From Gammaproteobacteria bacterium (GTDB taxonomy: Bacteria > Pseudomonadota > Gammaproteobacteria > Ga0077536): DNA of 64,000 bases. Each line of letters starts with the position of its first letter. Positions within the stretch are counted from its first letter, which is position 1. The notes below the pieces were generated by a model. It worked only from the letters and a program-made list of their open reading frames with translations, had not been told where the DNA came from and did no database searches. Below are positions 25,951-46,304 of this stretch, piece by piece. The position numbers and the translations under genes are program-made. The stretch is from contig JAJFJQ010000059.1 in NCBI GenBank assembly GCA_021773835.1, positions 1 to 64,000 of the forward strand, written 5' to 3'.

Positions 25951-27213
25951 TTATTGACGATACAAAGCAGAAGCGGCTATGCGCTGATCGATATCCTGCA
26001 CCACTCGTTTATAAGCATCACCGCCTACACCTCCGTAGCGACGTTTAAATTCAGCATCGGTCATGTTTTCTTCTAAATCGCTCACATCTGGAATGAGCGC
26101 CGCATCGTCAATGCCACGCTCAATCCTGTCTTGTAAGCGAATTGCAGAAGGTTCCGATTCGACCGCAACTTGACCGAACTGTGTCCCGGCTTTGTCTGCC
26201 GCGAGATCTTTAAAGCTAAAACCACTACCACCGTCGGCGTCATCAACTTCTTTGTACAAGCCAATCGCGTCCGACATGGCTCCGCCTCCGGCAACCGCCA
26301 AGGCCGCAGACGTCGTAAAGTGTTTAACGAAATCGCGACGCGAGTGGATCTTGAGTCGCACCCGCCGCGGCTGAACCCAGTCCACAGCTTCCGGCGCAAA
26401 AGTACTTAGGCTGCTGCCGTTTACATAGGAAGCCAGGACCACAATCGCGGCACGATTTTCCGCCACCGGATCGGTACTGGGGGATCGCTTGCGCGCTTCC
26501 TGAAAGATCGCTCGCAGCAGAGTCGTAAAGGATAAATTAGCACCCTGGCGCTCAATTTCGGCCGCGAGAAACTCGTTGTAGACCCGCAGCAATACTCGGT
26601 CCGTGCGCGAAACGAGGCGATCCCTCACCGCATCGACAATCTCTTCTTGCCATTGATAGGTAATGTCGAGTCGCCGTGGACGGATCGTGACCGCGCGCAA
26701 TACTTGCTTTGCGTTTTGAATACCAGAAGCTCGATAGACATGTTCCGCACCGAAGGATACCAATCCCCTAACGATCGCCCGCGGTATTGAAACGGATCCT
26801 ATCTTCAGTTTTTCAAAATGCGCCAAGTCGCCATCGGCACTAAGTTGGGTTTCCAAATTGAGATAGTGGTTAGGGATAAGCGCGGATAAATCCAGGCTTG
26901 CCAACAGCGCAAGCCGATCCTGCTCCATATCAAGCGTCGCGCTACCGGATCCAAAGCGGTTTATCAAATGATTAGCGATCAAACTAAGTTCTTCCTCATT
27001 CATGCTCACGGTCTTGACTTCGCCGGAGCGCAGCTTCCGCGGATCGTGCTCATGCAGGAGCTGTTTCGCACGTTCGACATTGGAGGCGCTCAACAATGCC
27101 TCGCCTTGCACCAGCGGGGTGGATTCCAGACACAGGACAGCGACCACGATGATCCCAATTGGGATCAGCAGCAGCGATAGGACAAAAAGGCGAACAAACC
27201 AGCGCACCAGCAA
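25951..27213 (-). CDS. Membrane-anchored hypothetical protein
   Basis: A 420-residue protein with one N-terminal membrane segment (residues about 5-28, WFVRLFVLSLLLIPIGIIVV), so the bulk lies in the periplasm. The first 240 residues look like a conserved lipid/polymer-interaction fold (EELSLIANHLINRFG; DLSALIPNHYLNLETQL). A later segment, RRDFVKHFTTSAALAVAGGGA, resembles a second hydrophobic stretch or an internal twin-arginine-like signal. The C-terminal 80 residues are charged and end in ASALYRQ. I do not recognise a named family. It is the last gene in the minus-strand run, 100 bases downstream of the maleate isomerase gene, and may or may not belong to that operon. Confidence 0.6.
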   Translation of the reverse strand: MLVRWFVRLFVLSLLLIPIGIIVVAVLCLESTPLVQGEALLSASNVERAKQLLHEHDPRKLRSGEVKTVSMNEEELSLIANHLINRFGSGSATLDMEQDRLALLASLDLSALIPNHYLNLETQLSADGDLAHFEKLKIGSVSIPRAIVRGLVSFGAEHVYRASGIQNAKQVLRAVTIRPRRLDITYQWQEEIVDAVRDRLVSRTDRVLLRVYNEFLAAEIERQGANLSFTTLLRAIFQEARKRSPSTDPVAENRAAIVVLASYVNGSSLSTFAPEAVDWVQPRRVRLKIHSRRDFVKHFTTSAALAVAGGGAMSDAIGLYKEVDDADGGSGFSFKDLAADKAGTQFGQVAVESEPSAIRLQDRIERGIDDAALIPDVSDLEENMTDAEFKRRYGGVGGDAYKRVVQDIDQRIAASALYRQ

Positions 27214-27313: not shown

Positions 27314-28075
27314 TTAGTGATAGCGGCCAGACAGGAGATCGCCTGCGTCTGGAATCGCGGTACTCAGCTGCAGCGCTCGCAGAATTTGAAACACAGTGGC
27401 CGCCGCAGTCGATAACACGGGGACGTCGATTGTCTCCTGCACCGGCGCAAGCGCAGCAAGTGACGGCATCTGCACACAAGCGGAAAGCACTACAGCGTCG
27501 GCATTGGCAATAGACAACCGCTTCACGGTCTCCACCAAAGCCATTGGATCCTGTGCCCCCACTACCAGGTTATTCGGGATTTCAAGTGAAATCGCATCCA
27601 ATACTTCTATCCCCTCGCTTTCGATATAACCGGTAACGAGTTCAGTCAAACTTTTCATGTATGGCGTGACGATCGCTACCTTTTTCGCACCTATCGCATT
27701 GAGGCCTTCGATTAGGGCGCCAGCGCTCGTAACGACCTTGGTATCCGGAGCATCGGTACGGCAGACTTCGCGTAGCGTCTGCTCGGTTTCACGATGGTAG
27801 CCGGGACCTTGACACATGATCGCGACCAAGCATGCCGAGGCAATCACATCCATTCTTGCGTCTGTAAGCTCCTGAGCGCAGCGTGCCATATGTCCGTTCA
27901 TCGCGGTCAGTTCGTCCTTGGAAACCGTTTTCATCGGCGCACGACTGGAATGGAAGGTGAAACTCATCCCATCATCGAGAAGCGCACGTTGAAGCATGGC
28001 TGGAACTTCGGTTTCCATGGTGGTGTTGGAACTCGGGACGATTTGACCAATACGATAAGTCTTCCGCTGATTCAT
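27314..28075 (-). CDS. Maleate cis-trans isomerase (NicE/MaiA-like)
   Basis: A 253-residue Asp/Glu racemase-superfamily enzyme. It has the isomerase signature QIVPSSNTTMETEVP at residues 11-25 and two catalytic cysteines, C82 in VIASACLVAIM and C200 in VVLSACVQMPSL, the positions used by characterised Pseudomonas maleate isomerases. It would convert maleate to fumarate, the last step of the nicotinate, picolinate and nicotine lower pathways. Its ATG overlaps the stop of the Rieske ferredoxin gene (ATGA), so translation is coupled. This is the most diagnostic gene for the cluster function. Confidence 0.88.
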   Translation of the reverse strand: MNQRKTYRIGQIVPSSNTTMETEVPAMLQRALLDDGMSFTFHSSRAPMKTVSKDELTAMNGHMARCAQELTDARMDVIASACLVAIMCQGPGYHRETEQTLREVCRTDAPDTKVVTSAGALIEGLNAIGAKKVAIVTPYMKSLTELVTGYIESEGIEVLDAISLEIPNNLVVGAQDPMALVETVKRLSIANADAVVLSACVQMPSLAALAPVQETIDVPVLSTAAATVFQILRALQLSTAIPDAGDLLSGRYH

Positions 28076-28386
28076 GAGTCTACCTCGATGTAGACGGTGC
28101 CATCTTCAACACGCACTGGATAACATGTGATCGGACTTACGCAAGGCGGCGCAGTGGCCTCGCCGGTGCGAATATCAAATGCCCCCATGTGAAACGGACA
28201 AATGATCTCACCGTCCTCGATGTCGCCCTCGGCTAAAGACGCGTCACCGTGGGTACAGGTATCGTCGGTTGCGAAAAACTGCCCGTCTAGGTTGTAGAGC
28301 GCAATCGGTGCGCGACCGTCCACAAAAACCTGGAGAACTTCATTGGGCGCGAGCTCGTCGGCGGCGCATGCGGCTATTTCCGGCAT
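28072..28386 (-). CDS. Rieske-type [2Fe-2S] ferredoxin
   Basis: A 104-residue Rieske ferredoxin. The cluster motif is CTHGDASL (residues about 43-50) and CPFHMGAFD (about 63-71), i.e. C-x-H and C-x2-H about 17 residues apart. Length and sequence match ferredoxin components of multi-component aromatic dioxygenases (BphF type) and NirD-like proteins. It lies seven bases after the amidase stop and overlaps the isomerase start by four bases. It is the likely electron donor for the Rieske oxygenase at 31976-33142. No ferredoxin reductase gene is in the window. Confidence 0.9.
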   Translation of the reverse strand: MPEIAACAADELAPNEVLQVFVDGRAPIALYNLDGQFFATDDTCTHGDASLAEGDIEDGEIICPFHMGAFDIRTGEATAPPCVSPITCYPVRVEDGTVYIEVDS

Positions 28387-28393
28387 TGTCGTA

Positions 28394-29680
28394 TTACTGC
28401 GCTTGAATCGGTTGAAGGTCGCGCATCAGGTGCCGTCCGAGCGCCAATATCGTCTTGTCGTCGTGGCGACGCCCGATCAACTGAATGCCAACGGGTAATC
28501 CGTTTGGCCCCGATCCGACAGGCAGATTCAGACATGGTACGCCTAGCAGCGTCCAAGTTACTTGGAAGATCGGATTCCCAGTTGCCATTCCTTTAGGCGC
28601 CTCACCGGGCGCACTGGGACAAATTATCGCGTCAAAGTCCTGAAATTTTTCGTTTACCGACTCTCGACACCGGTCCGCAAATGCATATGCCTCGTCATAC
28701 TCCTTGCTTGAGGTTGCCTGCCCTTCTTCTATTATCTCGACCAAAATGTCGCTCATTTGATCTTTTGCCGCACGATAGTCGGCGTCAAGCGACTTTGCTA
28801 CGCCAGCGTACAGTACCCGTCGATGCACGTCGGGGAGATCCGCATGGTCACTCGGCAGCTCGAACTCTTCAACGGTAGCTCCCCGGTCGGCAAATTTTGC
28901 CGCCACTTGAGTTAATACAGAGCGACTCTCCGCCTCTGCAAACTCCCACTGAAAGGTTTTGCAAAGACCTATCTTCGGGCGCTTGTCGACCGGCCACGAA
29001 GCCGATTGATCCTGCTCTGATACGATGCCGTAGAACGCCTGGATGTCTTCAATCGACCGCGCCATATAGCCCAAGGTGTCGAAATACAGCTGCAGCGGCA
29101 AGATGCCGGAGCCATCGGTTGTACCGTGCGTCGGCTTGAGTCCATAGACGCCACAAAAGGCTGCCGGTCGAATCAATGACCCCGCCGTCTGATTACCAAA
29201 CGCTATTGGCACCATGCGATCACATACCGAGGCCCCGGTGCCACTGGATGACCCCCCCGGTGTGTGCTCGAGATTCATCGGGTGGCGCGTCTCGGCAGGG
29301 TTGTAAATCGCAAACTCTGTGCTCACCACCTTCCCCAGCAACACGGCGCCGGCCTGGCGCATTAGAGCAACACAGGCGGCATCCGCGCTCGGCCGATGAC
29401 CTTTGTGGATCGGGCTGCCGTATTCGGTCGGGAAGTCCTTTGTGTCGATAACATCCTTCACCGCGAAGGGCACACCGTGCAACGGCGAACGCGGCGCTTC
29501 ACCGTCTGCTCTGGCTGCTTCGGCAAGCGAGAATTCCGGGTCAAGATGGCGAAAAGCGCCAACCGCTCCGTTGCGTTCCTCGATGCGCTTAAGACATGCT
29601 TCGGTAAGCGCCACCGAGCTCAATTCTTTGTTCGCAATCAAACGTGCGGCGGCGGTGGCGGTGAGAGTCGTCAGGTCCAT
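28394..29680 (-). CDS. Amidase (amidase-signature family)
   Basis: A 428-residue amidase with the Ser-cisSer-Lys triad: lysine in PFAVKDVIDT near residue 74, the glycine-serine loop HTPGGSSSGTGASV near 140-153, and the nucleophile region NQTAGSLIRPAAFCGVYGLKPT near 163-184. A GGAGA site precedes the ATG. It hydrolyses a C-N amide bond. In this cluster the fitting substrate is maleamate, giving maleate and ammonia for the isomerase. The known maleamate amidase NicF belongs to the isochorismatase family, so this would be a non-homologous replacement. Other small amides remain possible. Confidence 0.85.
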   Translation of the reverse strand: MDLTTLTATAAARLIANKELSSVALTEACLKRIEERNGAVGAFRHLDPEFSLAEAARADGEAPRSPLHGVPFAVKDVIDTKDFPTEYGSPIHKGHRPSADAACVALMRQAGAVLLGKVVSTEFAIYNPAETRHPMNLEHTPGGSSSGTGASVCDRMVPIAFGNQTAGSLIRPAAFCGVYGLKPTHGTTDGSGILPLQLYFDTLGYMARSIEDIQAFYGIVSEQDQSASWPVDKRPKIGLCKTFQWEFAEAESRSVLTQVAAKFADRGATVEEFELPSDHADLPDVHRRVLYAGVAKSLDADYRAAKDQMSDILVEIIEEGQATSSKEYDEAYAFADRCRESVNEKFQDFDAIICPSAPGEAPKGMATGNPIFQVTWTLLGVPCLNLPVGSGPNGLPVGIQLIGRRHDDKTILALGRHLMRDLQPIQAQ

Positions 29681-29835
29681 GTTGTCTCCATGAATGCTGG
29701 ATCAATGTTGGTCGACGGTACTGGCAATGTTTGCCCTACCATTTAAAGTGTCGCGCTATTGTACAAGTAAGGTATGGGTGATCACTTTTTTTCGTCGTCC
29801 AAGCAAACTGTACTGGTCACCGATTGCTAAGCCCG

Positions 29836-30840
29836 CTAGTTCGAAAGCAGTTCTTTGAGTTGGCGGTCGATAAAATCCGTGTCCTCAGGGTTACGGCCAG
29901 ACCCCGCCCAGTGTCCCCATTGCGAATTGATCGGGCGCAATTTCGCGTTTCTCATGTGGCTTACTTCAAGCTCGCTATCTTCCGGCGGGAAATAAGCGTC
30001 GGAAGTAGATGGCATAACATAAACACGCGCGCTGATTGCCCCCAACGCCTTCGCGAAATCCCCGTTGTAAAGTTCATTGGCACTGATATCGGCCGACCGC
30101 CAAGTCGCAATCTGAGCTAATACGTTGTTTGCATCCATGCCGGCGTACGTCGCCTCCCAATAACGCTCCATGAAGTCATCGACCGAGGTATACCCAAGAC
30201 GTTCGTAGTACGCGTGACGAAAGAAATGCGATGACGGCGGCCAGGCGCCCCATGCACGTGCCATCGTACGTAGGCCAACAACGGGTTGTTCTTCGTATTG
30301 ACCATTCATCCATGCTGGATCCGCCGTTAGGATCCCGCGCATCCCTTGGAGAAACACATCATTGTGGCGTGATATTTTTGCTGCTCCGCAGATCGCGCCG
30401 ACCCGTTCAACGAAATCCGGAAACAACGCGCCCCAATGGTAGGCCTGCACAGCGCCCATCGAGTGGCCGACCGCAAGTGCTAGCTTTTGTACACCAAACG
30501 CCTCAACCAGCAAACGCTTCTGGAGCCTGACGTTGTCGGCAATGGTGACCGTTGGGAACGCTACGCCGCCCGCATTACTCGGTGAGCTAGAAACACCGTT
30601 CCCGATGAGATTTACGGTGACGATAAAGTAATGCGCCGGATCCAATGCAAGCCCGCTACCAGTCAAGTATTGACTATGCTCATGGCTGCCACCGAAATGG
30701 GTTGGCATGATGATTGCGTTATCTTTGGCGCTGTTCAGCGTCCCACGCACGCAATAGGCGAGGCGTGCATCGGGCAGGGTTTCGCCCGACTCGAGGGTGA
30801 CATTCCCAGCAAAAAACGTTTCTTGGGTGAGTTCGGTCAT
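29836..30840 (-). CDS. Alpha/beta-hydrolase of the homoserine O-acetyltransferase (MetX)-like family
   Basis: A 334-residue hydrolase-fold protein. Motifs are NLIGNGVSSSPSN (MetX-like loop), nucleophile elbow AVGHSMGAVQAYHWG (Ser near 127), an acid in PSTSDAYFPPED and histidine in SQWGHWAGSGRNPED near 310. MetX enzymes usually have GGSMGGMQ at the elbow and lie in methionine loci. This one sits inside a catabolic operon, so hydrolysis is more likely than acetyl transfer. The step expected here is removal of formate from N-formylmaleamate, done by the alpha/beta-hydrolase NicD in known pathways. That assignment is inferred from context only. Confidence 0.75.
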   Translation of the reverse strand: MTELTQETFFAGNVTLESGETLPDARLAYCVRGTLNSAKDNAIIMPTHFGGSHEHSQYLTGSGLALDPAHYFIVTVNLIGNGVSSSPSNAGGVAFPTVTIADNVRLQKRLLVEAFGVQKLALAVGHSMGAVQAYHWGALFPDFVERVGAICGAAKISRHNDVFLQGMRGILTADPAWMNGQYEEQPVVGLRTMARAWGAWPPSSHFFRHAYYERLGYTSVDDFMERYWEATYAGMDANNVLAQIATWRSADISANELYNGDFAKALGAISARVYVMPSTSDAYFPPEDSELEVSHMRNAKLRPINSQWGHWAGSGRNPEDTDFIDRQLKELLSN

Positions 30841-30889
30841 CGGTGCGCTTTGGGCTACCGCCGCTCCGCGTGGTCAGTTATTTTACCTG

Positions 30890-31936
30890 CTAACCGTACA
30901 CCGGTTGTAGCTCGCGCACAGCCGCGGCTAGGTCCGGTGGGGCTACGATCACCCCGCCATCGATGATCTGCTCATCCTCGATCCAGAAAGATTGTTCTTT
31001 CATCACACAATCCGGATGATTTTCGCCGCCGCCGTCAACCCATTGCGGTAGACCGAGCCCGACAGCGTTGCACCCGATTGCGCGTTGATCCTCAATGAAG
31101 GATTTGCCGGTGAACCGGGCTGCTGGGTGATAACCACAAGTAAAGTGGACGATATTGCCATATTCACCATTGCCGGCGCGTTTCAATGAGCGATCGATCA
31201 CCTTTAGTTCGGTGCCACCGCCGGTGACCGACTGGATCTTGCCATCCACTTCAAACCGATATGGCTCCTGGAGCGGTGTGTAATATTCGTGAAAGGTTGA
31301 TTCACACACCACCGTGCCCTTCACTGAATCAAGCTCCGGAATCACCATCACCGTCCCAGGCACAAAATAACCACCGGGTTTCGTCGCGCGTTCTATCGCC
31401 AGGCCTTCTGGATCAGCCAGTTGAAACCGAACGTCAGTGCCAAGCGGTGTGGTGAAACGGCACTGCTTACCGGCCGATTCTTCAAGTAATGCATTGAACA
31501 GGTCCGAAACCACGAAAACCTGATCGAGATCCGCCTTACTGAAAATCCGAATTATCCCTTCGGCGCCGATGTCTGCAGCAAGGAAATACCGCGTACGCCC
31601 ATTTTTCATTGCCGTGTCATATACCGCCGCACCCGCCATATAGGGCATGCACAAGTCGATCCAGGCGTCGCAGTTCTGCGCTGCCGCTACGACCGGATCA
31701 GGCAGGTAGGGGTTCGCGAGCCCGCCTTGAAACGGTAACGGCGGCGATAAAGTCATCGTCGCAACTTTAGCGCCAAGTGCATAAGCGGCGTTGACGATCG
31801 CATCGACCGCGCGTTTTTCCGTGTTGGTGTCGCAGGTGACCAACACATGCTCTTGCTCCACGACGCACATCATGTCGCGTACTAACATTAGTGCGGCGCG
31901 CGCGAGGTCCGGGCCCATTTCAACAGTAGCACTCAT
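30890..31936 (-). CDS. 2,5-dihydroxypyridine 5,6-dioxygenase-like (NicX/M29) protein
   Basis: A 348-residue protein of the group that includes NicX and is related to M29 aminopeptidases. Candidate iron ligands are H264 in GNIVHFTCGYHP and the H307-x-D309 pair in GGGENHPDCVM; the H-x-D pair near the C-terminus is characteristic of NicX. The N-terminal domain has VLVTCDTNTEKRAVDAI and ALGAKVATMTLSP. NicX opens the ring of 2,5-dihydroxypyridine to N-formylmaleamate. A GGAGAAGAGGG site precedes the start. It lies 39 bases downstream of the Rieske oxygenase gene. An aminopeptidase-like role is an alternative, but neighbours favour ring cleavage. Confidence 0.75.
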   Translation of the reverse strand: MSATVEMGPDLARAALMLVRDMMCVVEQEHVLVTCDTNTEKRAVDAIVNAAYALGAKVATMTLSPPLPFQGGLANPYLPDPVVAAAQNCDAWIDLCMPYMAGAAVYDTAMKNGRTRYFLAADIGAEGIIRIFSKADLDQVFVVSDLFNALLEESAGKQCRFTTPLGTDVRFQLADPEGLAIERATKPGGYFVPGTVMVIPELDSVKGTVVCESTFHEYYTPLQEPYRFEVDGKIQSVTGGGTELKVIDRSLKRAGNGEYGNIVHFTCGYHPAARFTGKSFIEDQRAIGCNAVGLGLPQWVDGGGENHPDCVMKEQSFWIEDEQIIDGGVIVAPPDLAAAVRELQPVYG

Positions 31937-31975
31937 CGCCCTCTTCTCCTTTGTGCCGGTGCGGCGAAATTTTAG

Positions 31976-33142
31976 TTATTTGTGACCGATATCATCAACG
32001 GTGTGCTTGATAGTCCCCATGACACCTGCTTCAAACGGCGACACCGGGCCGGGCTCGTAGAAGCGGGATTTCATTCCTTTCTGTAGGGCATCGATCATCT
32101 CGGTGTCTTCCTCCATAAAGGCCTTATAGAAATCAACGTAGACCTGCGCCTCTTCTTTGAAGTTCGGCCGTGAGAAATGTTCTTCCGGGAACAATTGATA
32201 GGTGATGGATAAGCTCTTATCCGCACCCATTGGCCAATTGGTATTCACCGAGACGTAATCAAAACGAGGGAACCACGCATTGTTCGGTGGTAGATGACTG
32301 GAAAAACCGCCGCTATGTAACTCTTCTGGCAACCATGGGATCGGGCCGAACAACGATTTACCCTCGGGCGCCAAAGTGCCGCCAATGAAGCGGCCATGGT
32401 AGCCACCATCGAAGACCTCATAGCGATAACCATCGAGCGGCTGATAGGGTCCGAACGTGTCACCGTGCAATACCGCGATGTGGTAGATGTCGGTCAGGTT
32501 CTCGTTCAAGAACTTCCAGTTGCAGCCAATGTTCATGGTGAACTTATTTGCTAGGCGCAAACGCCCCATCTGGTAGGGCTCATAGATTCTAGGGAAATCC
32601 CACTTTTCCAAACTCTCCATCAACGGCCGCGCATCGGGGTCGAAATTGATGAAGACAAATCCTTCCCACAGCTCCGTTTGGATCACCGGTAGACGGCAAT
32701 TCTCTTTCTTGAAGGTTTTGGATTTCTCGAGGTATTGCGCATCGACCAGGTTACCGCTCGTGTCGTATACCCAACCGTGATAGGGGCAGGAGAAGTATTT
32801 TGTGTTCCCTGCTTCCCACGCAACTTGGACGCCGCGGTGACGACAGACATTCGCGAAGGCTTGTATATTCCCGTTCTTTTCCTTTACTACCACAATCGGT
32901 TCGTCGCCGATCCGTTGGGTGAAATAGTCTCCCGGTTTTTCACACTCTTCGGCCCGACCAACCAATAGCCATTCCTTCATGAAGATCTCTTCCATCTCCC
33001 GCTCAAGGACCTCGTCGGAGTAGTAAACTTCTCCGCGGCGGTGATTTTCGCTGACCTCGGGCGCCTCATTAACGACGCTATAGCCGAATTTCAACGGGTC
33101 ATAGCTGATTTTTGCGGTATCGTCTTTCGGGTTCGCTGCCAT
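31976..33142 (-). CDS. Rieske non-heme iron oxygenase, large subunit
   Basis: A 388-residue ring-hydroxylating oxygenase alpha subunit. The Rieske centre is CRHRGVQVAWE (about residue 83-85) and FSCPYHGWVYD (about 102-105). The mononuclear iron site begins at NWKFLNENLTDIYHIAVLHG near residue 205-224, giving the two histidines; the acidic ligand is probably in EDTEMIDALQKGM near the C-terminus. A GAGGAAA site precedes the ATG. It is the first gene of the cluster and so probably catalyses the ring hydroxylation that feeds the NicX-like enzyme. No small (beta) subunit is present, as in phthalate- or KshA-like families. Confidence 0.9.
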   Translation of the reverse strand: MAANPKDDTAKISYDPLKFGYSVVNEAPEVSENHRRGEVYYSDEVLEREMEEIFMKEWLLVGRAEECEKPGDYFTQRIGDEPIVVVKEKNGNIQAFANVCRHRGVQVAWEAGNTKYFSCPYHGWVYDTSGNLVDAQYLEKSKTFKKENCRLPVIQTELWEGFVFINFDPDARPLMESLEKWDFPRIYEPYQMGRLRLANKFTMNIGCNWKFLNENLTDIYHIAVLHGDTFGPYQPLDGYRYEVFDGGYHGRFIGGTLAPEGKSLFGPIPWLPEELHSGGFSSHLPPNNAWFPRFDYVSVNTNWPMGADKSLSITYQLFPEEHFSRPNFKEEAQVYVDFYKAFMEEDTEMIDALQKGMKSRFYEPGPVSPFEAGVMGTIKHTVDDIGHK

Positions 33143-33318: not shown

Positions 33319-33954
33319 TTATAGTGTGATGAAACCACGCTGGATCGCGATAGTTACCGCATGCGTCCGATCGTTCGCATTGAGTTTAGCCATTGTGTTC
33401 TTGACGTGCATCTTCACGGTTTCCTCGCTGATTGACAGCAACTGTGCGACCGCTTTGTTGCGATGGCCGTCAGCGATCAAGGTCAGAACCTCAATTTCGC
33501 GGGTGCTGAGCGCCTTCTCGCCGAGATGCTCCGCGATTTGGGTCGCGACGAGGCCCGGGATGCCGCTTTTTCCCGCATGGACAGCATGAATGATCTTCAG
33601 TAATTCAGGAAACGCCATCCCCTTCAGCACATATCCACGAGCGCCGGCGGCGAGTGCTCGCTGGATCAGCGCGTCGCCGGTCTCGGTCGTCAATACAACT
33701 ATCTTGGCGTCTGCTGCCGTTTCCCGGATTGCGGCAATCGCTTCGATACCATTGATATCTGGCAGACGTAGGTCCATCAACGTTACGTCGGGATTAAACT
33801 CGCGGAACTTTTCAATCGCAAGCTCCCCGCTTGCTGCTTCCGCAACGAGTTCAACACTCGGATCGTTACCAAGGACCGCGGCCAACCCCTGGCGAAAGAT
33901 GGGATGGTCGTCGACACACATCACCCGAATCCGCTGGACATCATCGTCACTCAT
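33319..33954 (-). CDS. LuxR/NarL-family response regulator
   Basis: A 211-residue regulator. The receiver domain has the acidic pair CVDDHP near residue 14-16, the phospho-acceptor aspartate in VTLMDLRLPDINGIEA (about residue 60) and the conserved lysine in ARGYVLKGM. The C-terminal helix-turn-helix is LSTREIEVLTLIADGHRNK through ISEETVKMHVKNTMAKL. The gene starts six bases after the histidine kinase stop, so the two form one unit. The pair lies just upstream of the Rieske oxygenase operon in the same direction, which suggests it controls that operon. Confidence 0.9.
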   Translation of the reverse strand: MSDDDVQRIRVMCVDDHPIFRQGLAAVLGNDPSVELVAEAASGELAIEKFREFNPDVTLMDLRLPDINGIEAIAAIRETAADAKIVVLTTETGDALIQRALAAGARGYVLKGMAFPELLKIIHAVHAGKSGIPGLVATQIAEHLGEKALSTREIEVLTLIADGHRNKAVAQLLSISEETVKMHVKNTMAKLNANDRTHAVTIAIQRGFITL

Positions 33955-33960
33955 TGGGCT

Positions 33961-35637
33961 TTACTCGGCCGAACCAGACCGGCCGGCATAGGCGACTGCA
34001 CCCGGGACAAGCAACTCCACGGTTGTACCCTGAGCATTTTGCGCTTCGACTTTAAGCAAGCCACCGATCTTTTCTGCTCGCTCACGCATGCCCTGTAGAC
34101 CAAAATGTCCGGGTCGACCGATGCGCGCAATCGTGCTGTCGATACCGCATCCGTCATCCCTCACTCGTATCGACAGATCCTCCGTGTAGGCGAGTTCAAG
34201 TTCAATCGATGCTGCGTTTGCGTGGTGAGTGGCGTTTGCCACCGCCTCTCTACAGATCCCGTATATATCATTCCAAAGTGCGGCGTTCAGTTCCCGCTGC
34301 TCGCCACGAACATCAAGTTTGAAGGCGATTTCAGAACCGCTAAGAAGTGCATCACCAAGCGACGCGATGGATGTCGTCAGATCTATCGTCGGAGGTGCGG
34401 TTGAACGTAGCAAAGAAAGTACCGCACGCCCTTCATCTATTGCATAGATGGAAGCGTCCAGGGCGCGTTCAAATAGTTTATTCGCGGATTCGTCGCCTGT
34501 TTTGGATCGTTCGATCGCGGCTTCGAGTAGAAACCGCAATCCCTGCATACTCTGTAATAAAGTGTCATGTAAGTCGCGCGCTATACGAACCCGATCTTCT
34601 TGTTGCGCCGCTTTCGCCCGATCTTGTAGTTCGCGCAAGCGAACATCTTCCTGTTCGTGGCTAAATGCCTCCGCTAGTGCACCCGACACTTGGTCCGCGA
34701 GCATGCGAAAGAACGAACTATGTGCTTCGTCGAGGCGTTTATGTGGATTAACGCCGCACAACATGAAGGCCTTCGGCGTACCTTCGCCATAACGCTCGAA
34801 CGGAAGAAACAATAACTCCTCGGCTGGTACTTTCCACGTGCCAAGAGGGATCGGCGCGGACGCGGGATCCAATGGAAGCAAAGCGTACTCGCGACTTCCA
34901 GATTGCGTAAGCAAGCGCACAATGTCGCTATCGACATCTACGTCGATTGTCGTCGGGCATAATGCTGCACCGACGTCGATATTAGACGTCGCGCACAAAT
35001 GCGCCTGCGTGCGTTCCTCGTCCCATAAGTACAAGCCGGCGAATGGGATATCGCGATCATTACTCGTAAAGACTTGAGCCGCGACATCGAGCACTTCACG
35101 CGGATCGCGCAGTTCCCGGGTACCAGCGGCAAGTTGTTGTAACGTCTGTAGCCGGCGCTCCCCGATAACCCGTTGGGTGGTCTCCGGGAACATGGTGAAA
35201 ACACCTTCAATGTCGCCATACTCGTTAACCAGCGGTGAGTAACTAAAGGAGCAATAGAACTCCTCCACATATCCGGAACGATTCAAGAATATGGCTGCGT
35301 CATCTGCACCGGTCGCCTCACCGGTCTCGAGCGTGTGCTGCATGAGTGGCCCGATGACGTCGAACACTTCCGCCCAAACTTCATCGGCGGTCCGTCCCAA
35401 TGCCCACGGATGTTTTGAACCCAGTAGTGCGCTGTAGGCATCGTTGTAGAGTACTAATCGTTCCGCGCCCCAATAAATGGCACTGCACAGGCGTGAACCG
35501 AGACACAGATCTAGCGCCGTGCTGAAACCGCGCGACCATTGCCCCGCTGGGCCGAGTGCGGTTTTGCCCCAATCGTAGGCGTGGATCCGCTCAGCCATCT
35601 CCGACACGGCGTTTCGCTGTGCGTTAGTTCCCGGCAT
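33961..35637 (-). CDS. Cytoplasmic sensor histidine kinase (PAS-GAF-HisKA_3)
   Basis: A 558-residue kinase without membrane segments. The N-terminal 150 residues are PAS-like (IYWGAERLVLYNDAYSALLG; VEEFYCSFSYSPLVNEYG), residues about 165-320 look like a GAF domain (RDIPFAGLYLWDEERTQAHL), and the catalytic region has the NarX/DesK-type H box RVRIARDLHDTLLQSMQGLR near 350 and an HATPase with CREAVANATHHANA, RVRDDGCGID and GHFGLQGMRERAEKIGG. It should sense an intracellular ligand or redox state. The start may be this ATG or an internal ATG 13 codons later that has a closer GGAG. It is partnered with the response regulator downstream. Confidence 0.88.
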   Translation of the reverse strand: MPGTNAQRNAVSEMAERIHAYDWGKTALGPAGQWSRGFSTALDLCLGSRLCSAIYWGAERLVLYNDAYSALLGSKHPWALGRTADEVWAEVFDVIGPLMQHTLETGEATGADDAAIFLNRSGYVEEFYCSFSYSPLVNEYGDIEGVFTMFPETTQRVIGERRLQTLQQLAAGTRELRDPREVLDVAAQVFTSNDRDIPFAGLYLWDEERTQAHLCATSNIDVGAALCPTTIDVDVDSDIVRLLTQSGSREYALLPLDPASAPIPLGTWKVPAEELLFLPFERYGEGTPKAFMLCGVNPHKRLDEAHSSFFRMLADQVSGALAEAFSHEQEDVRLRELQDRAKAAQQEDRVRIARDLHDTLLQSMQGLRFLLEAAIERSKTGDESANKLFERALDASIYAIDEGRAVLSLLRSTAPPTIDLTTSIASLGDALLSGSEIAFKLDVRGEQRELNAALWNDIYGICREAVANATHHANAASIELELAYTEDLSIRVRDDGCGIDSTIARIGRPGHFGLQGMRERAEKIGGLLKVEAQNAQGTTVELLVPGAVAYAGRSGSAE

Positions 35638-35808: not shown

Positions 35809-37095
35809 CTAATGACGCGCACAATCGGCGACAATCAGTAGCTCTGTTAGCGCATGGTACGACCGCACGTCCAAGCCAGTCGCATCGAGCAGTTTTTGAA
35901 ATCGCGAATAGACTGTGTTCGGATGGACCGATAGTGCTTCCGCCGTCTTCAACACATTCATATCTGCATCCGCATAGGCGCGGACCGTCGCCAACAGGGC
36001 GCCGCAGAGCTTCTCGTCCAAACGAACAAACTCGCTCACCCACGGCGGTGTTACTTGCTGAAGCTCATCACCGGCAATGTGCAGCATTAAACGCCTTGCT
36101 GAAATTTCAGAAAACTGCACGACCCGATCGCTCACGCTCGCGAGTTCGAGCGCGAGCAGCGCTTGGCGGTGAGCATTCGGGATCAGTGCGGTCGCCGGGA
36201 CATCATTGCTCACGCCGATGAGTACCGCATTACCAACCAACATGAGTTCTTTGTTTAAGCGCGTCGCCAATTTAGCGTTCGGTGCGGTCCACCCGGAGAC
36301 GCGTCTCGTATCGGAAAAAATCGTCACCACCCGGTTATCGCGTATATCGATCACCCGACGTGCAACAGAGCCGCGAACGATTTCGTCGATTGAATCCGCA
36401 ACACGTCTAGCGCGCAACGGATTGAGCATCTCACTCGGGTCGACGGGCTGCGCAATCGCGACACAAAACGATTGGCGTCGATCAAGGTAACCCGCGGATT
36501 TAAGTATTGCCGCAACCCGACCGTCAGACTCGTCGTAACCGTCGAGTAGTATGTTGATCAACTCTGCCCGACGCGCGCCCGCGACATCGGCCAATAGACG
36601 GGTTTGCGCAACGTAGCTGCTCGCCGCAATTGTGCTAATCGCATCGGTATACTCCAGTGCGAAGTCCGCAACCGCTGCCACCATTTGCTGGGCATCGTCA
36701 TCGGGCGGGGTCGCGGCCAAAATGGCCTTGCGCAGCCAACGTGAAAAAACTTTATGGCCACATCGATAGGCGTGTAGTGTCGCCTCTAACGGGAAACGGC
36801 TGTCGGCGCGCCGGCGCGCATGCTCGCGTACAAATTCGAAATCACCGACCCTGCCGCCGCCAAGCAGACGCAATATCTCCTCGGTGTGTTGCGGGCCGTG
36901 CCGCGCAAGCGCCGGCTGCACATCGGGATTTCGCGATTCTGTGAAGGCCGGAATGGCGCTCACGACGGCTTCGCCTAATTCAACGTTGATCGCTGCTGCA
37001 TGAGAGCGGATGTACTTGACCGCTGGAGGCAAAAGCGGGCTCTGCCGGAGTTGGTCCTGTACTTGTGTGAGCGTCCTGGTGTAGTAGGTGGACAT
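35809..37095 (-). CDS. PucR/CdaR-family transcriptional regulator
   Basis: A 428-residue regulator. The C-terminus carries the PucR-type helix-turn-helix (MNVLKTAEALSVHPNTVYSRFQKLLDATG). The middle has the GGDEF-like region usual in this family (RQSFCVAIAQPVDPSEM through VVTIFSD), and the N-terminal 170 residues are helical with LEATLHAYRCGHKVFSRWL, as in RsbT-co-antagonist-like N-terminal domains. PucR-family proteins often activate purine, amino-acid or aromatic degradation. It is 171 bases upstream of the kinase gene on the same strand and divergent from the YCII-like gene. It could act on the pyridine-type cluster. Confidence 0.85.
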   Translation of the reverse strand: MSTYYTRTLTQVQDQLRQSPLLPPAVKYIRSHAAAINVELGEAVVSAIPAFTESRNPDVQPALARHGPQHTEEILRLLGGGRVGDFEFVREHARRRADSRFPLEATLHAYRCGHKVFSRWLRKAILAATPPDDDAQQMVAAVADFALEYTDAISTIAASSYVAQTRLLADVAGARRAELINILLDGYDESDGRVAAILKSAGYLDRRQSFCVAIAQPVDPSEMLNPLRARRVADSIDEIVRGSVARRVIDIRDNRVVTIFSDTRRVSGWTAPNAKLATRLNKELMLVGNAVLIGVSNDVPATALIPNAHRQALLALELASVSDRVVQFSEISARRLMLHIAGDELQQVTPPWVSEFVRLDEKLCGALLATVRAYADADMNVLKTAEALSVHPNTVYSRFQKLLDATGLDVRSYHALTELLIVADCARH

Positions 37096-39901: not shown

Positions 39902-41668
39902 TCAAGCTGCGTTGCGGCGAAGTTCGGTGCGGCGCGCTATCGTTGCATCCACATCTATCACGGTCGCCTCATCCATGACTACACCGTAGACATTAAACGC
40001 GTGCTCGATAGTACAGAAATCATCTAGTACATCTTCTCTTACCTGGGCCGGGTCGCGATCTAGTGGATCTCCGTACCCGCCACCGCATGGCGTGTGGATC
40101 TCTATGCAGTCCCCTTTGAGGGTGCGCAAACCAGAAAACTTAGCCGGGATCGACTCGCGCGTGTCCGGATCGGTGATGTTGTATTTGACAACGTGTCCGC
40201 CATGGCCAGCCTCCCCACCGAGGATCCCCCACGGACGATCTTCGTGCCGATCGGATTCATGCGTCATGACACCATCGCTGACGAATCGCTGGGTCTTAAC
40301 GACACCGATGCCACCGCGAAACTGGCCGGCCGCTGGCAATACGTCGTCACGCAGTTCATAGCGGTCGCAAAATAGCGGTAGGTGCATTCCAAGGTCTTCG
40401 ATTGGATTGTTACGCGTATTCGCCATGAGGCAATCGATCGAATCCGGCCCGTCGCTCGTCGGACGCCCACCGTAAGAGCCTTCGTTGACTTCGAGGAACA
40501 CCCAAATGTCGCCGGAATCACGCAGTCCGGAGTAGGCGGCGAACGATAAGGCTGCGGAATTTCCTGCCGTGATGTTATTTGGTACCACCGGCGCGAGCGC
40601 CTTGATGATGCAGTCCACGATCCGCTGGATCTGGCCAAAGCGCGCTTCTGCCGCGTTCGGGAATTCGGGATTAAAAATCGAACCCATCGGTGCGACAACC
40701 GAAATTGGCCGAAACGACCCTTCGTTTTGTGGGACGTATTCGGCGTGCGTGTGGGTGTCCATCAACAAGGCGCGAAAGGCGTAGTAGCAGGCGACTTTTG
40801 TCGACCCTTCGAACGGGACATTGAACGCGGTCGGTACCTGATCCGCCGACCCCGTCAGATCCACCTCTGCGCTATCTCCGGCAATCCTCACAGTTACCTT
40901 AACCGGTAATGTCGTACCACGATTGCGGCCGTCATCGTCCATGAAACCCTCGGCGCTGTATTCACCGTCTGGGATCTCGGCCAAGCGGCCCCGTAACACA
41001 CGCTCTGAATAATCCATCAATTGATTACACGCCGCGCGCACCGTGTCGCGTCCATAACTATCCATTAATTCCGTAAAACGCCGCACGCCAAGTTCTGCCG
41101 CTGCGAGTTGCGCCTCTAAGTCACCCATCACCTGACCGGGGGCTCGAGTATTCGTTTCTATAAACTGCCACAACGCGCGGTTCAGAATTCCGCGTTCATA
41201 GAGCTTGATCCCCTTAAACAGCATCCCTTCTGCGTAGACATCAGCAACATCGATGATCAATCCAGGCGTTGCCGCGCCGATGTCCACGTGGTGCGCGGTA
41301 TTGGCCGAGAATCCAAATAGCTCACCGTCGTAGAACACGGGCGCTACAATGGCGATATCTGGCGAATGACTCGCACCATAATAAGGATGATTGTGAATCA
41401 CGATGTCGCCCGGCTCCCAATCACCGTGTAGCGTTTCTTCAATGCCACGTAGGTAACCTGGTAGCGATCCGATGTGCATTGGGGTCGAATCCGATTCACA
41501 CAAGGTGTTGAAATTGTGGTCGAACAGTCCCGCACCAAGATCCTGCGATTCCCGAATTATTGATGAGTAGGACATGCGGTAGAGCACGTGGCCCATCTCT
41601 TTGGCAATCGTATCCAACGCCCCGCCGATGACTTGCAATGAAATTGGGTCTACTGTGATTTCGCTCAT
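39902..41668 (-). CDS. hyuB: Hydantoinase B/oxoprolinase family protein (HyuB), pair 1
   Basis: A 588-residue HyuB-family protein starting ITVDPISLQVIGGALDTIAKEMG and containing the family blocks DPYYGASHSPDIAI-like (NHPYYGASHSPDIAIVAPVF near residue 97), AHHVDIGAATPG and CGGGYGDPLDRDPAQVREDV near the end. HyuB is the beta partner of HyuA in ATP-dependent hydantoinases, N-methylhydantoinases and 5-oxoprolinases, which open cyclic amides. It follows HyuA by 41 bases. The second pair is only about 4.5 kb upstream. No gamma subunit of the acetone-carboxylase type is present. Confidence 0.88.
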   Translation of the reverse strand: MSEITVDPISLQVIGGALDTIAKEMGHVLYRMSYSSIIRESQDLGAGLFDHNFNTLCESDSTPMHIGSLPGYLRGIEETLHGDWEPGDIVIHNHPYYGASHSPDIAIVAPVFYDGELFGFSANTAHHVDIGAATPGLIIDVADVYAEGMLFKGIKLYERGILNRALWQFIETNTRAPGQVMGDLEAQLAAAELGVRRFTELMDSYGRDTVRAACNQLMDYSERVLRGRLAEIPDGEYSAEGFMDDDGRNRGTTLPVKVTVRIAGDSAEVDLTGSADQVPTAFNVPFEGSTKVACYYAFRALLMDTHTHAEYVPQNEGSFRPISVVAPMGSIFNPEFPNAAEARFGQIQRIVDCIIKALAPVVPNNITAGNSAALSFAAYSGLRDSGDIWVFLEVNEGSYGGRPTSDGPDSIDCLMANTRNNPIEDLGMHLPLFCDRYELRDDVLPAAGQFRGGIGVVKTQRFVSDGVMTHESDRHEDRPWGILGGEAGHGGHVVKYNITDPDTRESIPAKFSGLRTLKGDCIEIHTPCGGGYGDPLDRDPAQVREDVLDDFCTIEHAFNVYGVVMDEATVIDVDATIARRTELRRNAA

Positions 41669-41709
41669 GCTTCACCCATTTAACTAATCAGTTTTTCTTT
41701 GGCGCAGTA

Positions 41710-43809
41710 CTAGGCGTTTTCTGCTGCGCTACCGCGAATATGGATATTGCCAAAATCGCTGACCGTCGCCACGTAATTCGGTGGTACCAGTGAGGTGGAA
41801 TTGTGTTGAATGATCACCGCCGGTCCATCGATACGATGTCCGGCGAGTAATTGCTCTCTGGTGTAGCGCGGTGTGTCGTGCGTCTTACCGGAATCAAACA
41901 CCGTTGCCCGTGTGTACAAATAGGCCGCCTTCGGATCCGGGCTAACGGCTTTATCGAGCTCCGGCCACAGAAGTTTATCCGCTGGCGCCGAGCCAATAAC
42001 ACGCAATGTAATCACTTCAATCGGGGTGTCCTCGAACGAATGCCCGTAGTCGCTCTTATGCGCAAGATGAAAGCTTTCGGCTAATTGCTCGCGATTACCG
42101 TCATTTAGCGGTTCGTCCGGAAATTGCGCGCGCAGCTCAAAACCTTGCCCTTGATAGCGACACTCAGCAATACGCGTAAATCGGTGTAGGGAAGGATCGA
42201 TCCCATCATTCACCAGCGCCGTCGTCGCCTGCGAAACAAGCTCATCCATCTGACGATTAATCTGTTTAAGCTCCGCATCGGTACACGCAGACAGTACCAA
42301 CATGGCCGCAGCGGTAAACTCGTATTGGATATCGGTTGCGAGTAATCCTATCGCGGCGGTAATACCCGGCGCCGGTGGGACTATTACTTCACGCGCGGCA
42401 ACCGCATCAGCCAAAGCCAAACCGTGCAGTGGACCGGCGCCGCCGAAGGGCATCAGTGAATAATCGCGCGGGTCGATCCCGCGCGCAACCGAATTGGCCC
42501 GGATCGCCAAGGCCATATTGGAATTGATCACCCGAATAATGCCGAGCGCAGCATCGGTTACGCTCAGATCGAGCTTCGCGCAAAGGTTGTCTTCAATTGC
42601 TTTGCGCGCGAGTTCGGGATCTATCGATAAGCCGCCGCCAAGAAACTGGTCAGGATCCAAACGGCCCAGAACAACCTGTGCATCGGTTACAGTGGGCTCA
42701 GTGCCACCCCGGCCGTAACACGCTGGACCCGGCACCGCACCAGCCGAGCGCGGACCGACCCGAAACGCGCCACCACTATCAACGTATGCGATCGAGCCGC
42801 CACCGGCACCAATGGTTTGCAGATCGATCATCGGCGCGAGTACGGGATAGCCATCAACTTCGGTATCGCGGGGGTTCTTGATCCGCACTTGCCCGTCCGG
42901 AATGACGCTAATGTCCGCCGAGGTGCCACCGATATCGACAGTGATTAAATTCCTAGCGGCGGAAAGCTCACCACACCACCGGCCGCCGATAACGCCGCCC
43001 GCAGGCCCAGACATGAGGATCGTTACCGCCTTATTCGAGCACGTCTCGATAGTCGCAATGCCGCCGTTCGATTGCATGACCCGGATCGGTGCATGAATAC
43101 CAGCGGTAGCTAAGTTTGATTCCAAATTGCGTAAATAAGTCGCTACACGAGGGCCGATGAAGGCATTCATCGCCGCGGTCGAGAAGCGTTCGTACTCACG
43201 CATGACGTTGACGACTTCTGAAGAGCAATGGACGTAGGCGTCCGGCATGATCTCTTGGACGATCGCCTTCGCGCGTTGCTCGTGCGCATCGTTCAAAAAC
43301 GAAAATAGAAACCCGATGACGACGGACTGAATACCGCGCTTGTTTAATAATGCAGCGGCTTCGCGGACCTCGTCTTCCGCTAACGTGACAGTTGCAGCAC
43401 CGTCCGGTGGCATGATCCGCTCGGTGATTGGCAAGCGGTTACGCCGCCGGATCATGGGCTTCGTCTGCCACGGTAAGTCGAACTGCAATGAGAAATTATG
43501 TGGTCGCTTGTGTCGCGCCAGGTGCAAAATGTCGCGATAGCCGCGAGTGGTTAGCATCCCGACCTCGGCACCGCTGTGCTCGATCACGGTATTCGTCGCA
43601 ACTGTAGTGCCGTGGACAATTAGATCCAATTCACTCGGTGCCAAGTCCGCGTGCGTGCAGATTTCCTGGATGCCTTGGAGAACCGCTAAGGATTGATCTT
43701 GTGGTGTGCTCGGCACCTTATGCACATGTATCGAACGCGCACTCGCAGAGGACGATTCCAAGATCAAATCGGTGAAAGTGCCGCCGACGTCGACGCCGAT
43801 CTTATTCAT
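41710..43809 (-). CDS. hyuA: Hydantoinase A/oxoprolinase family protein (HyuA), pair 1
   Basis: A 699-residue HyuA-family protein. The ASKHA-type ATPase motifs are clear: IGVDVGGTFTDLILE at the start, TVDIGGTSADISVIPDG near residue 295 and GAGGGSIAYVDSGGAFRVGP near 335, followed by the PGPACYGRGGTEPTVTDA signature. An AGAGGT site precedes the ATG. Together with HyuB it should form an ATP-dependent ring-opening or carboxylating complex acting on a cyclic imide, lactam or ketone-like substrate. It shares architecture with the HyuA at 46305-48380 but differs widely in sequence, so the pairs probably have different substrates. Confidence 0.88.
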   Translation of the reverse strand: MNKIGVDVGGTFTDLILESSSASARSIHVHKVPSTPQDQSLAVLQGIQEICTHADLAPSELDLIVHGTTVATNTVIEHSGAEVGMLTTRGYRDILHLARHKRPHNFSLQFDLPWQTKPMIRRRNRLPITERIMPPDGAATVTLAEDEVREAAALLNKRGIQSVVIGFLFSFLNDAHEQRAKAIVQEIMPDAYVHCSSEVVNVMREYERFSTAAMNAFIGPRVATYLRNLESNLATAGIHAPIRVMQSNGGIATIETCSNKAVTILMSGPAGGVIGGRWCGELSAARNLITVDIGGTSADISVIPDGQVRIKNPRDTEVDGYPVLAPMIDLQTIGAGGGSIAYVDSGGAFRVGPRSAGAVPGPACYGRGGTEPTVTDAQVVLGRLDPDQFLGGGLSIDPELARKAIEDNLCAKLDLSVTDAALGIIRVINSNMALAIRANSVARGIDPRDYSLMPFGGAGPLHGLALADAVAAREVIVPPAPGITAAIGLLATDIQYEFTAAAMLVLSACTDAELKQINRQMDELVSQATTALVNDGIDPSLHRFTRIAECRYQGQGFELRAQFPDEPLNDGNREQLAESFHLAHKSDYGHSFEDTPIEVITLRVIGSAPADKLLWPELDKAVSPDPKAAYLYTRATVFDSGKTHDTPRYTREQLLAGHRIDGPAVIIQHNSTSLVPPNYVATVSDFGNIHIRGSAAENA

Positions 43810-43976
43810 ACTAGTTCGTATACCTCTGTGACGTGGGCCTTATTGTGCCTCATGTTGCTCGCTAGAACGAACGCCCAACGCACTTCATTAAAAGAATAGG
43901 GTTACTGCATCTCCATCACGGAAATACGCCGCAAGCCGAAAATAAACGATCGTTGGGAAACAGCGCGGTCGCTTGA

Positions 43977-44366
43977 TCAGCTAGATTTCGGCTTGACGTT
44001 GTAGTGAATCGTCATCACGACAACGTTGCCATCGCGTACGAGATAGGAATCGGCCCCATCGCTTACGGTGTTGGTATCAGAATCACCTGTCCAGACTAAA
44101 AATCCCATCTCTCCATGGATCAAGATCTGCTTGTACTCGTAGGTTGCATTCGGCAGGTGTTCATGCAGCAATCGGATTTTCTGCTTGATGCCTTCGTGGC
44201 CTTCGAACACCCCGTAGTTCGTCAGCAACACACAGGATCCGGAAAAGTTGCGCTTTAGATCGGTTTGCCAGTCGCCCTGCTTGGCCAATTCGAGATGGTC
44301 GTATAGAACTTCTTCCGTTGTGCGACTCATTGATCGTGTCACCCGTTCAATATCATTAGCATTCAT
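43977..44366 (-). CDS. NTF2-like (SnoaL-type) small protein
   Basis: A 129-residue NTF2-fold protein from ATG 44366; a TTG seven codons earlier is an alternative. It shows DHLELAKQGDWQTDLKRNFS, VLLTNYGVFEGHEGIKQKI and GEMGFLVWTGDSD, the helix-sheet cone typical of SnoaL-like and limonene-epoxide-hydrolase-like proteins and of many small dehydratases or isomerases. It lies between the two HyuAB pairs, only 20 bases after the hairpin that terminates the first pair transcribed, leaving almost no room for a separate promoter. Function unknown; perhaps auxiliary to the hydantoinase-like pathway. Confidence 0.75.
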   Translation of the reverse strand: MNANDIERVTRSMSRTTEEVLYDHLELAKQGDWQTDLKRNFSGSCVLLTNYGVFEGHEGIKQKIRLLHEHLPNATYEYKQILIHGEMGFLVWTGDSDTNTVSDGADSYLVRDGNVVVMTIHYNVKPKSS

Positions 44367-44385
44367 GGTGCACGGAATCTCATGC

Positions 44386-44414
44386 AAAAGAAAACCCGCA
44401 ACTATGGCGGGTTT
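44386..44414 (-). terminator. Rho-independent terminator/attenuator after the HyuAB pair 2
   Basis: Arms AAACCCGC (44392-44399) and GCGGGTTT (44407-44414) with a seven-base loop; on the minus strand the hairpin is followed by TTTTCTTTT. It lies 33 bases after the HyuB stop codon (44447) and about 20 bases before the next start codon (44366). Confidence 0.85.
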
Positions 44415-44446
44415 CCCTTATGCACAAAACGTGCGTATCAGTTGGT

Positions 44447-46240: not shown

Positions 46241-46304
46241 GGTTTATCTCCTAAGGTCTATTTCGAATTACTCTGTGCAAAAATCTAAACAAATTTGTAA
46301 CGGT

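Follow-up and report, generated by a model that had tools for sequence, protein, structure and literature searches.

The six minus-strand genes at positions 27314-33142 of the first 64,000 nucleotides of a gammaproteobacterial contig (JAJFJQ010000059.1; this whole stretch is the window) raise the question of what compound they degrade, and of how closely their route resembles the nic lower pathway of Pseudomonas putida (NicC-NicX-NicD-NicF-NicE). An earlier note had recognized in them a Rieske oxygenase, a NicX-like ring-opening dioxygenase, an alpha/beta hydrolase, an amidase, a Rieske ferredoxin and a maleate isomerase, and all six open reading frames are present on that strand and in that order. 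Their spacing is operon-like, with intergenic gaps of 39, 49, 155 and 7 bases in gene order and an overlap of 4 bases between the ferredoxin and isomerase genes. At the level of sequence, the gene set, its conservation, the motifs, a distant kinship of the dioxygenase with NicX and a genuine maleate isomerase are established. On balance, the operon appears to degrade a small nitrogen-containing heteroaromatic compound (N-heteroaromatic) to fumarate by a route like that of the nic lower pathway, assembled mostly from other parts, and its natural substrate is probably something other than simply 2,5-dihydroxypyridine.

The kinship with NicX emerges from profile comparisons. The second gene (30890-31936; 348 residues) encodes a protein with no Pfam match up to E 10, so that membership of PF02073, the M29 aminopeptidase family, is not found, and with no NCBIfam match. 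The other five proteins belong to known families, with Pfam domains Rieske plus Ring_hydroxyl_A, Abhydrolase_1, Amidase, Rieske and Amdase/Asp-Glu racemase, and their catalytic motifs are intact. A search of the PDB with a profile of seven close homologues returned NicX (7cn3) as the sole match (E 0.016); when two plasmid homologues (43-46% identity) were added to the profile, 7cn3 was again the sole PDB match, at E 3.5e-5 (hmmsearch). Comparison with the NicX-clade alignment by hhalign gave 99.3% probability (E 6.8e-21, 298 columns, 23% identity), against 21% probability and a partial match for M29, whose profile is thin (three proteins). In a maximum-likelihood tree the window clade is one group (100/99), apart from NicX with its nearer relatives (91/89) and from M29, on very long branches that limit the reading of the splitting order. 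By these comparisons the window dioxygenase is a distant NicX relative of a separate clade and not an M29 peptidase, and the name NicX-like given to it in the earlier note holds.

The active site is where the window clade departs from its relative. NicX holds Fe(II) through H265, S302, H318 and D320, and handles 2,5-dihydroxypyridine and its product with L104/H105, E177 and H189 (PMC7910607). H264, H307 and D309 of the window protein align with H265, H318 and D320 and are invariant in the clade; this triad and the near full-length profile homology are its likeness to the NicX structures (7cn3, 7cnt, 7cup). The differences, besides the separate 100/99 clade, lie in the fourth ligand and the pocket. 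At the S302 position there is Leu, Gly or a neighbour, depending on gap placement, and Ser in no aligned clade member, while in all of these members NicX H105 is replaced by Gly, H189 by Tyr or Phe, and the stretch around E177 is shortened and rearranged. Other invariants of the window clade include H216, Y219, R274, E282, D283, R285, E305 and N306, which are kept in the plasmid homologues too. From the alignments we infer that the iron site is a plain 2-His-1-Asp site in which a substrate could bind in bidentate fashion, and that this substrate differs from 2,5-dihydroxypyridine.

The same features could be taken to mean that the protein is a metallo-hydrolase, or some other enzyme of the NicX/M29 superfamily, that carries out no oxidative cleavage of an aromatic ring. 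Its branch is very deep, the serine ligand is lost, and the NicX clade itself weakly matches the M29 profile. The position of H264 at NicX H265, the weak and partial nature of the M29 match and the recurrent pairing with a Rieske oxygenase gene all argue the other way, and make a non-oxidative enzyme very unlikely.

At the other end of the operon, the isomerase gene (27314-28075; 253 residues) encodes a protein that matches the P. putida maleate isomerase 4fq7 at 262.8 bits (E 2e-77) and arylmalonate decarboxylase at about 40 bits (42). It is 54.6% identical to 4fq7 over 249 residues, and N17, C82, Y139, N169 and C200 are all identical. The 4fq5 structure has Ala at the C200 position, which fits with this cysteine being one of those mutated by its depositors. 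No important difference is seen from the Iso/NicE enzymes of P. putida (4fq7, 4fq5) and Nocardia (2xec, 2xed). The assignment as a NicE-type maleate isomerase is firm on sequence grounds; the two cysteines, C82 and C200, named in the earlier note are both present, and the protein groups with NicE-type enzymes at 55% identity.

The two intervening hydrolytic steps are encoded by proteins of other kinds. The alpha/beta hydrolase (29836-30840; 334 residues) is of the MetX-like PRK07581 family, scoring 444.9 bits against NF005757, for which the cut-off is 332; it matches PDB entry 5e4y at 239 bits, and S127, D281 and H310 are in place (GHSMG...H310). It has no detectable similarity to a NicD-position protein, and a role as an N-acyl or formyl hydrolase is proposed. 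The amidase (28394-29680; 428 residues) is an amidase-signature enzyme (PF01425) with intact VKD/GGSSSG/GS motifs, and its nearest solved relative is malonamidase E2 (1ock, 218 bits). The substrate of malonamidase E2 is a dicarboxylic half-amide, and a maleamate-type amidase is proposed for the window protein. By family, the hydrolase differs from the NicD type and the amidase from the NicF type.

These comparisons bear directly on whether the operon could do the same work as the nic lower pathway. The Rieske oxygenase would then make 2,5-dihydroxypyridine, the NicX-like enzyme would open it to N-formylmaleamate, the hydrolase would deformylate this product, and the amidase and isomerase would complete the route to fumarate. 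The types of reaction and their order match, the isomerase shares 55% identity with P. putida Iso, the dioxygenase has NicX among its relatives, and in Agrobacterium the same dioxygenase clade lies beside a flavin monooxygenase. However, S302, H105, E177 and H189 are all substituted in the window clade, while the other clades compared keep most of them (S302, E177 and H189 in clade B; S302, H105 and H189 in clade C). Nor is there a NicD- or NicF-type protein, and neither the operon nor the conserved neighbourhoods read showed a linked NicC flavin monooxygenase or a linked molybdenum hydroxylase, the kind of enzyme that would produce a hydroxypyridine. Such equivalence is unlikely. Judged by its deformylase, amidase and NicX pocket, this is not a nic operon. 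It shares with the P. putida pathway the reaction types, a homologous isomerase and a distantly homologous dioxygenase, and differs in having a Rieske oxygenase with a ferredoxin, a MetX-like hydrolase, an amidase-signature amidase and a dioxygenase of a separate clade. The proposal of nic-type reactions encoded side by side stands for the reaction types, the isomerase and the NicX kinship, and is not supported for the nic steps on 2,5-dihydroxypyridine.

The arrangement of the six genes is found in other genomes as well. Loci were fetched by homology and compared with the window genes by tblastn. The full six-gene order recurs in four of them (L020, L022, L025 and L027); a further contig (L026) begins inside the NicX-like gene and so has the last five of the six, and others end inside the operon. 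Protein identity to the window ranges from about 58% (ferredoxin) up to 92% (the NicX-like fragment). The oxygenase and dioxygenase genes are also paired in L023 and L024, with products 72-83% identical to those of the window. The carriers are labelled Longimicrobiales (L023), Deltaproteobacteria (L024) and, for the rest, uncultured proteobacteria, and the labels of several suggest a marine or Caspian Sea origin. Nonsynonymous divergence (dN) is 0.06-0.37 across the operon proteins and silent sites are saturated, for which reason no ratio of the two is given; low dN at saturated silent sites implies functional genes and not chance frames. Between the window and L027 the Rieske oxygenase (0.06) and the NicX-like protein (0.08) are the most constrained, with the other genes at 0.20-0.25. 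The maleate isomerase is present as a single copy in seven of nine genomes searched, all seven of which have the NicX-like gene. The two in which no isomerase was found are G013, whose NicX-like gene is interrupted by the end of its contig, and G024, in which no NicX-like match was found either. The dioxygenase clade is rare: among 398 phylum-sampled and 369 class-sampled genomes only the window's own contains it. Viral contigs and a phage collection yielded no relatives. The earlier note had made its proposal depend on the absence of clustering with M29 peptidases or with other Asp/Glu racemases and on co-occurrence elsewhere; neither clustering was found, and the gene order does recur in other genomes.

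The first gene (31976-33142; 388 residues) encodes a Rieske non-heme iron oxygenase, as an alpha subunit only (PF00355 and PF00848). The cluster motif C-x-H...C-x2-H lies at residue 100 (CRHRG..CPYH), and D218-x2-H221-x4-H226 (D218IYHIAVLH) would supply the two histidines of the mononuclear site and the bridging aspartate; by these motifs the protein is a Rieske ring-hydroxylating oxygenase. Its electron carrier is proposed to be the Rieske-type [2Fe-2S] ferredoxin of the operon (28072-28386; 104 residues; PF00355), which is HcaC/AndAb-like and has its Rieske motif at residue 44. The window genome (6.1 Mb, 74 contigs) contains 27 matches to the Rieske catalytic-domain family and 19 to a molybdenum-hydroxylase family. 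When 30 Rieske proteins are placed in a tree, the oxygenases linked to NicX-type genes (those of the window, L028, L024, L025, L041 and the clade-B neighbours L029 and L031) group with that of L059 (99/98), and seven of the ten members of a clade with 100/99 support are NicX-linked. In the loci compared, the tie between this clade and NicX-type genes is strong but has exceptions. A Glu (ExYH) form is characteristic of quaternary-amine Rieske oxygenases. The DxYH motif of the window oxygenase and its GbcA-model score of 147 bits, below the cut-off of 670, argue against membership of that group (GbcA/CntA).

Further pairings of the two genes occur within the same genome and on other replicons. 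A second Rieske and NicX-like pair, 78-79% identical and without the amidase and isomerase, lies on contig C71 of the window genome (L028, 7509-9856); its neighbours are genes for an AMP ligase, MaoC-like, CitE-like and PanB-like proteins, two oxidases linked to flavin adenine dinucleotide (FAD) and a cytochrome c. A second association of Rieske and NicX genes is seen at L031 (5825-9104) and L029 (693-3032), where NicX-clade genes with Phe for H105 adjoin those for a Rieske oxygenase and an alpha/beta hydrolase.

On plasmid 3 of Variovorax sp. SRS16 (L041), a member of the dioxygenase clade is found together with an M20 hydrolase, a Rieske oxygenase and an alpha/beta hydrolase. About 6 kb further on there is a protein of the NicX clade, which shares 43% identity with P. 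putida NicX, together with an alpha/beta hydrolase, an isochorismatase-family protein, an FAD monooxygenase and hydroxylase subunits of the 2Fe-2S and FAD-binding kinds. This distal cluster looks like a canonical pyridine-type (nic-type) cluster, and the hydrolase at its NicF position is of the isochorismatase type, unlike the window amidase. In Agrobacterium sp. T29, the clade dioxygenase is accompanied by an alpha/beta hydrolase, an FAD monooxygenase resembling the 3-hydroxybenzoate 6-monooxygenase family, and proteins of the Asp/Glu racemase and isochorismatase families, with no Rieske gene of the operon's kind found in the stretch. The hydrolases of these two plasmids share 39% identity and are unlike the one at the NicD position. 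These neighbourhoods support a role in N-heterocycle catabolism and suggest that the type of oxygenase is exchangeable. The earlier suggestion that the Rieske oxygenase replaces NicC is a reasonable conjecture, and it fits with the Agrobacterium plasmid, where the dioxygenase of this clade is paired with a flavin monooxygenase and a Rieske gene is absent. A broken remnant of the dioxygenase clade is also seen on Cupriavidus metallidurans pMOL30 (L042, 7881-8320) and at L043, with intact relatives on other plasmids; the pMOL30 remnant adjoins two short nitronate monooxygenase annotations.

The following route can be proposed. The Rieske oxygenase would hydroxylate an N-heteroaromatic ring, drawing electrons from the operon ferredoxin and an unlinked reductase, and the NicX-fold Fe(II) enzyme would then open the ring oxidatively. 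Because this enzyme would hold its iron by two histidines and one aspartate alone, direct binding of the hydroxylated substrate to the metal is possible, in contrast to dihydroxypyridine in NicX. The MetX-like hydrolase would strip an acyl or formyl group off an N-acyl amide, the malonamidase-like amidase would hydrolyse a maleamate-type product with release of ammonia or else an amine, and the isomerase would convert maleate to fumarate.

Several observations weigh against this route. The hydrolase and amidase families are broad, and their reactions are guessed from gene position. A predicted structure of the dioxygenase, from seven close homologues, reached a predicted local distance difference test (pLDDT) score of 52, too poor for examination of the pocket. 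The Rieske and NicX-like pair occurs without an amidase or isomerase nearby in L024, L028 and L023. In addition, some members of the Rieske clade keep other company: that of L059 has an M20 hydrolase and a hydantoinase-type pair as neighbours, and this M20 protein shares 46% identity with its counterpart adjoining the Variovorax pair; that of L095 (7194-9630) lies beside an M20 hydrolase and HyuA/HyuB, with no NicX gene found nearby; and those of L097 (8935-11658) and L098 (8923-11772), on Acidovorax and Paraburkholderia plasmids, have no NicX neighbour. The Rieske, ferredoxin and FAD oxidoreductase sets of L097 and L098 adjoin citrate/2-methylcitrate synthase genes.

The hydantoinase and M20 associations would suit a ring other than pyridine, for instance a pyrrole, a furan or a lactam, or else a marine pyridinium that bears an N-methyl group, of which trigonelline and homarine are examples; the intermediate would then be of the maleate or N-methylmaleamate type. 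The altered pocket, the marine or Caspian Sea labels of several carriers and two hydantoinase-type pairs some 7 kb away in the window point the same way. Yet the hydantoinase genes are not kept beside the operon, and the oxygenase has the DxYH motif and not the quaternary-amine Glu form; such a substrate is doubtful. For homarine and trigonelline in particular, no Rieske-based route was found in the literature searched, and with an oxygenase that has no quaternary-amine oxygenase features they were set aside.

Returning to the degradation of an N-heteroaromatic compound to fumarate, a described parallel is the lum cluster for riboflavin and lumichrome, which uses an alpha/beta Rieske dioxygenase and the extradiol enzyme LumE in a pyrone route to pyruvate and acetoacetate (PMC12746152). 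It too is an N-heterocycle route in which a Rieske dioxygenase precedes a ring-cleaving dioxygenase, but no NicX-like protein or maleate isomerase is reported there (PMC12746152), and it was set aside as a match because genes and products differ. Among the papers searched, with subscription literature and preprints excluded, Rieske, NicX and pyridine are joined only in the NicX structure paper, and a Rieske oxygenase, a dihydroxypyridine dioxygenase and a maleate isomerase are joined in none. The reaction types are known, but the way the genes are assembled and the clade of the dioxygenase look new. It is a serious possibility, just short of even, that the operon represents an undescribed N-heteroaromatic pathway, in which a Rieske oxygenase and a new NicX-fold clade (2-His-1-Asp, no serine) act on a substrate that is not 2,5-dihydroxypyridine, in uncultured aquatic gammaproteobacteria, with variants on soil plasmids. 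How uncultured aquatic bacteria break down N-heteroaromatics is poorly mapped, and so far NicX has been treated as a nearly isolated subclass. A second NicX-fold clade travelling with Rieske oxygenases would extend what is known of how pyridine-type rings are cleaved, provide marker genes for N-heterocycle turnover, and make it possible to ask whether catalysis requires the serine ligand of NicX.

A scan for promoters and terminators gave sites no more numerous than in shuffled sequence, and candidate regulation comes instead from the genes upstream, all on the minus strand. A LuxR-type response regulator (33319-33954; PF00072 and GerE) is followed by its partner, a sensor histidine kinase (33961-35637; HisKA_3 and HATPase_c). 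This two-component system is the likely regulator of the operon, and it also lies upstream of the operon in L027 and in the Longimicrobiales locus L023. A PucR-type regulator (35809-37095; PF13556) lies upstream in L027 too, and its tie to the operon is uncertain. Two tandem hydantoinase/oxoprolinase-type pairs (HyuA/HyuB; 39902-48380, minus strand) were rejected as members of the pathway because they are not kept beside the operon in related genomes. Just downstream of the operon, on the minus strand, there is a gene for a protein without a Pfam match (25951-27213), which is found downstream in L026 and L027 as well.

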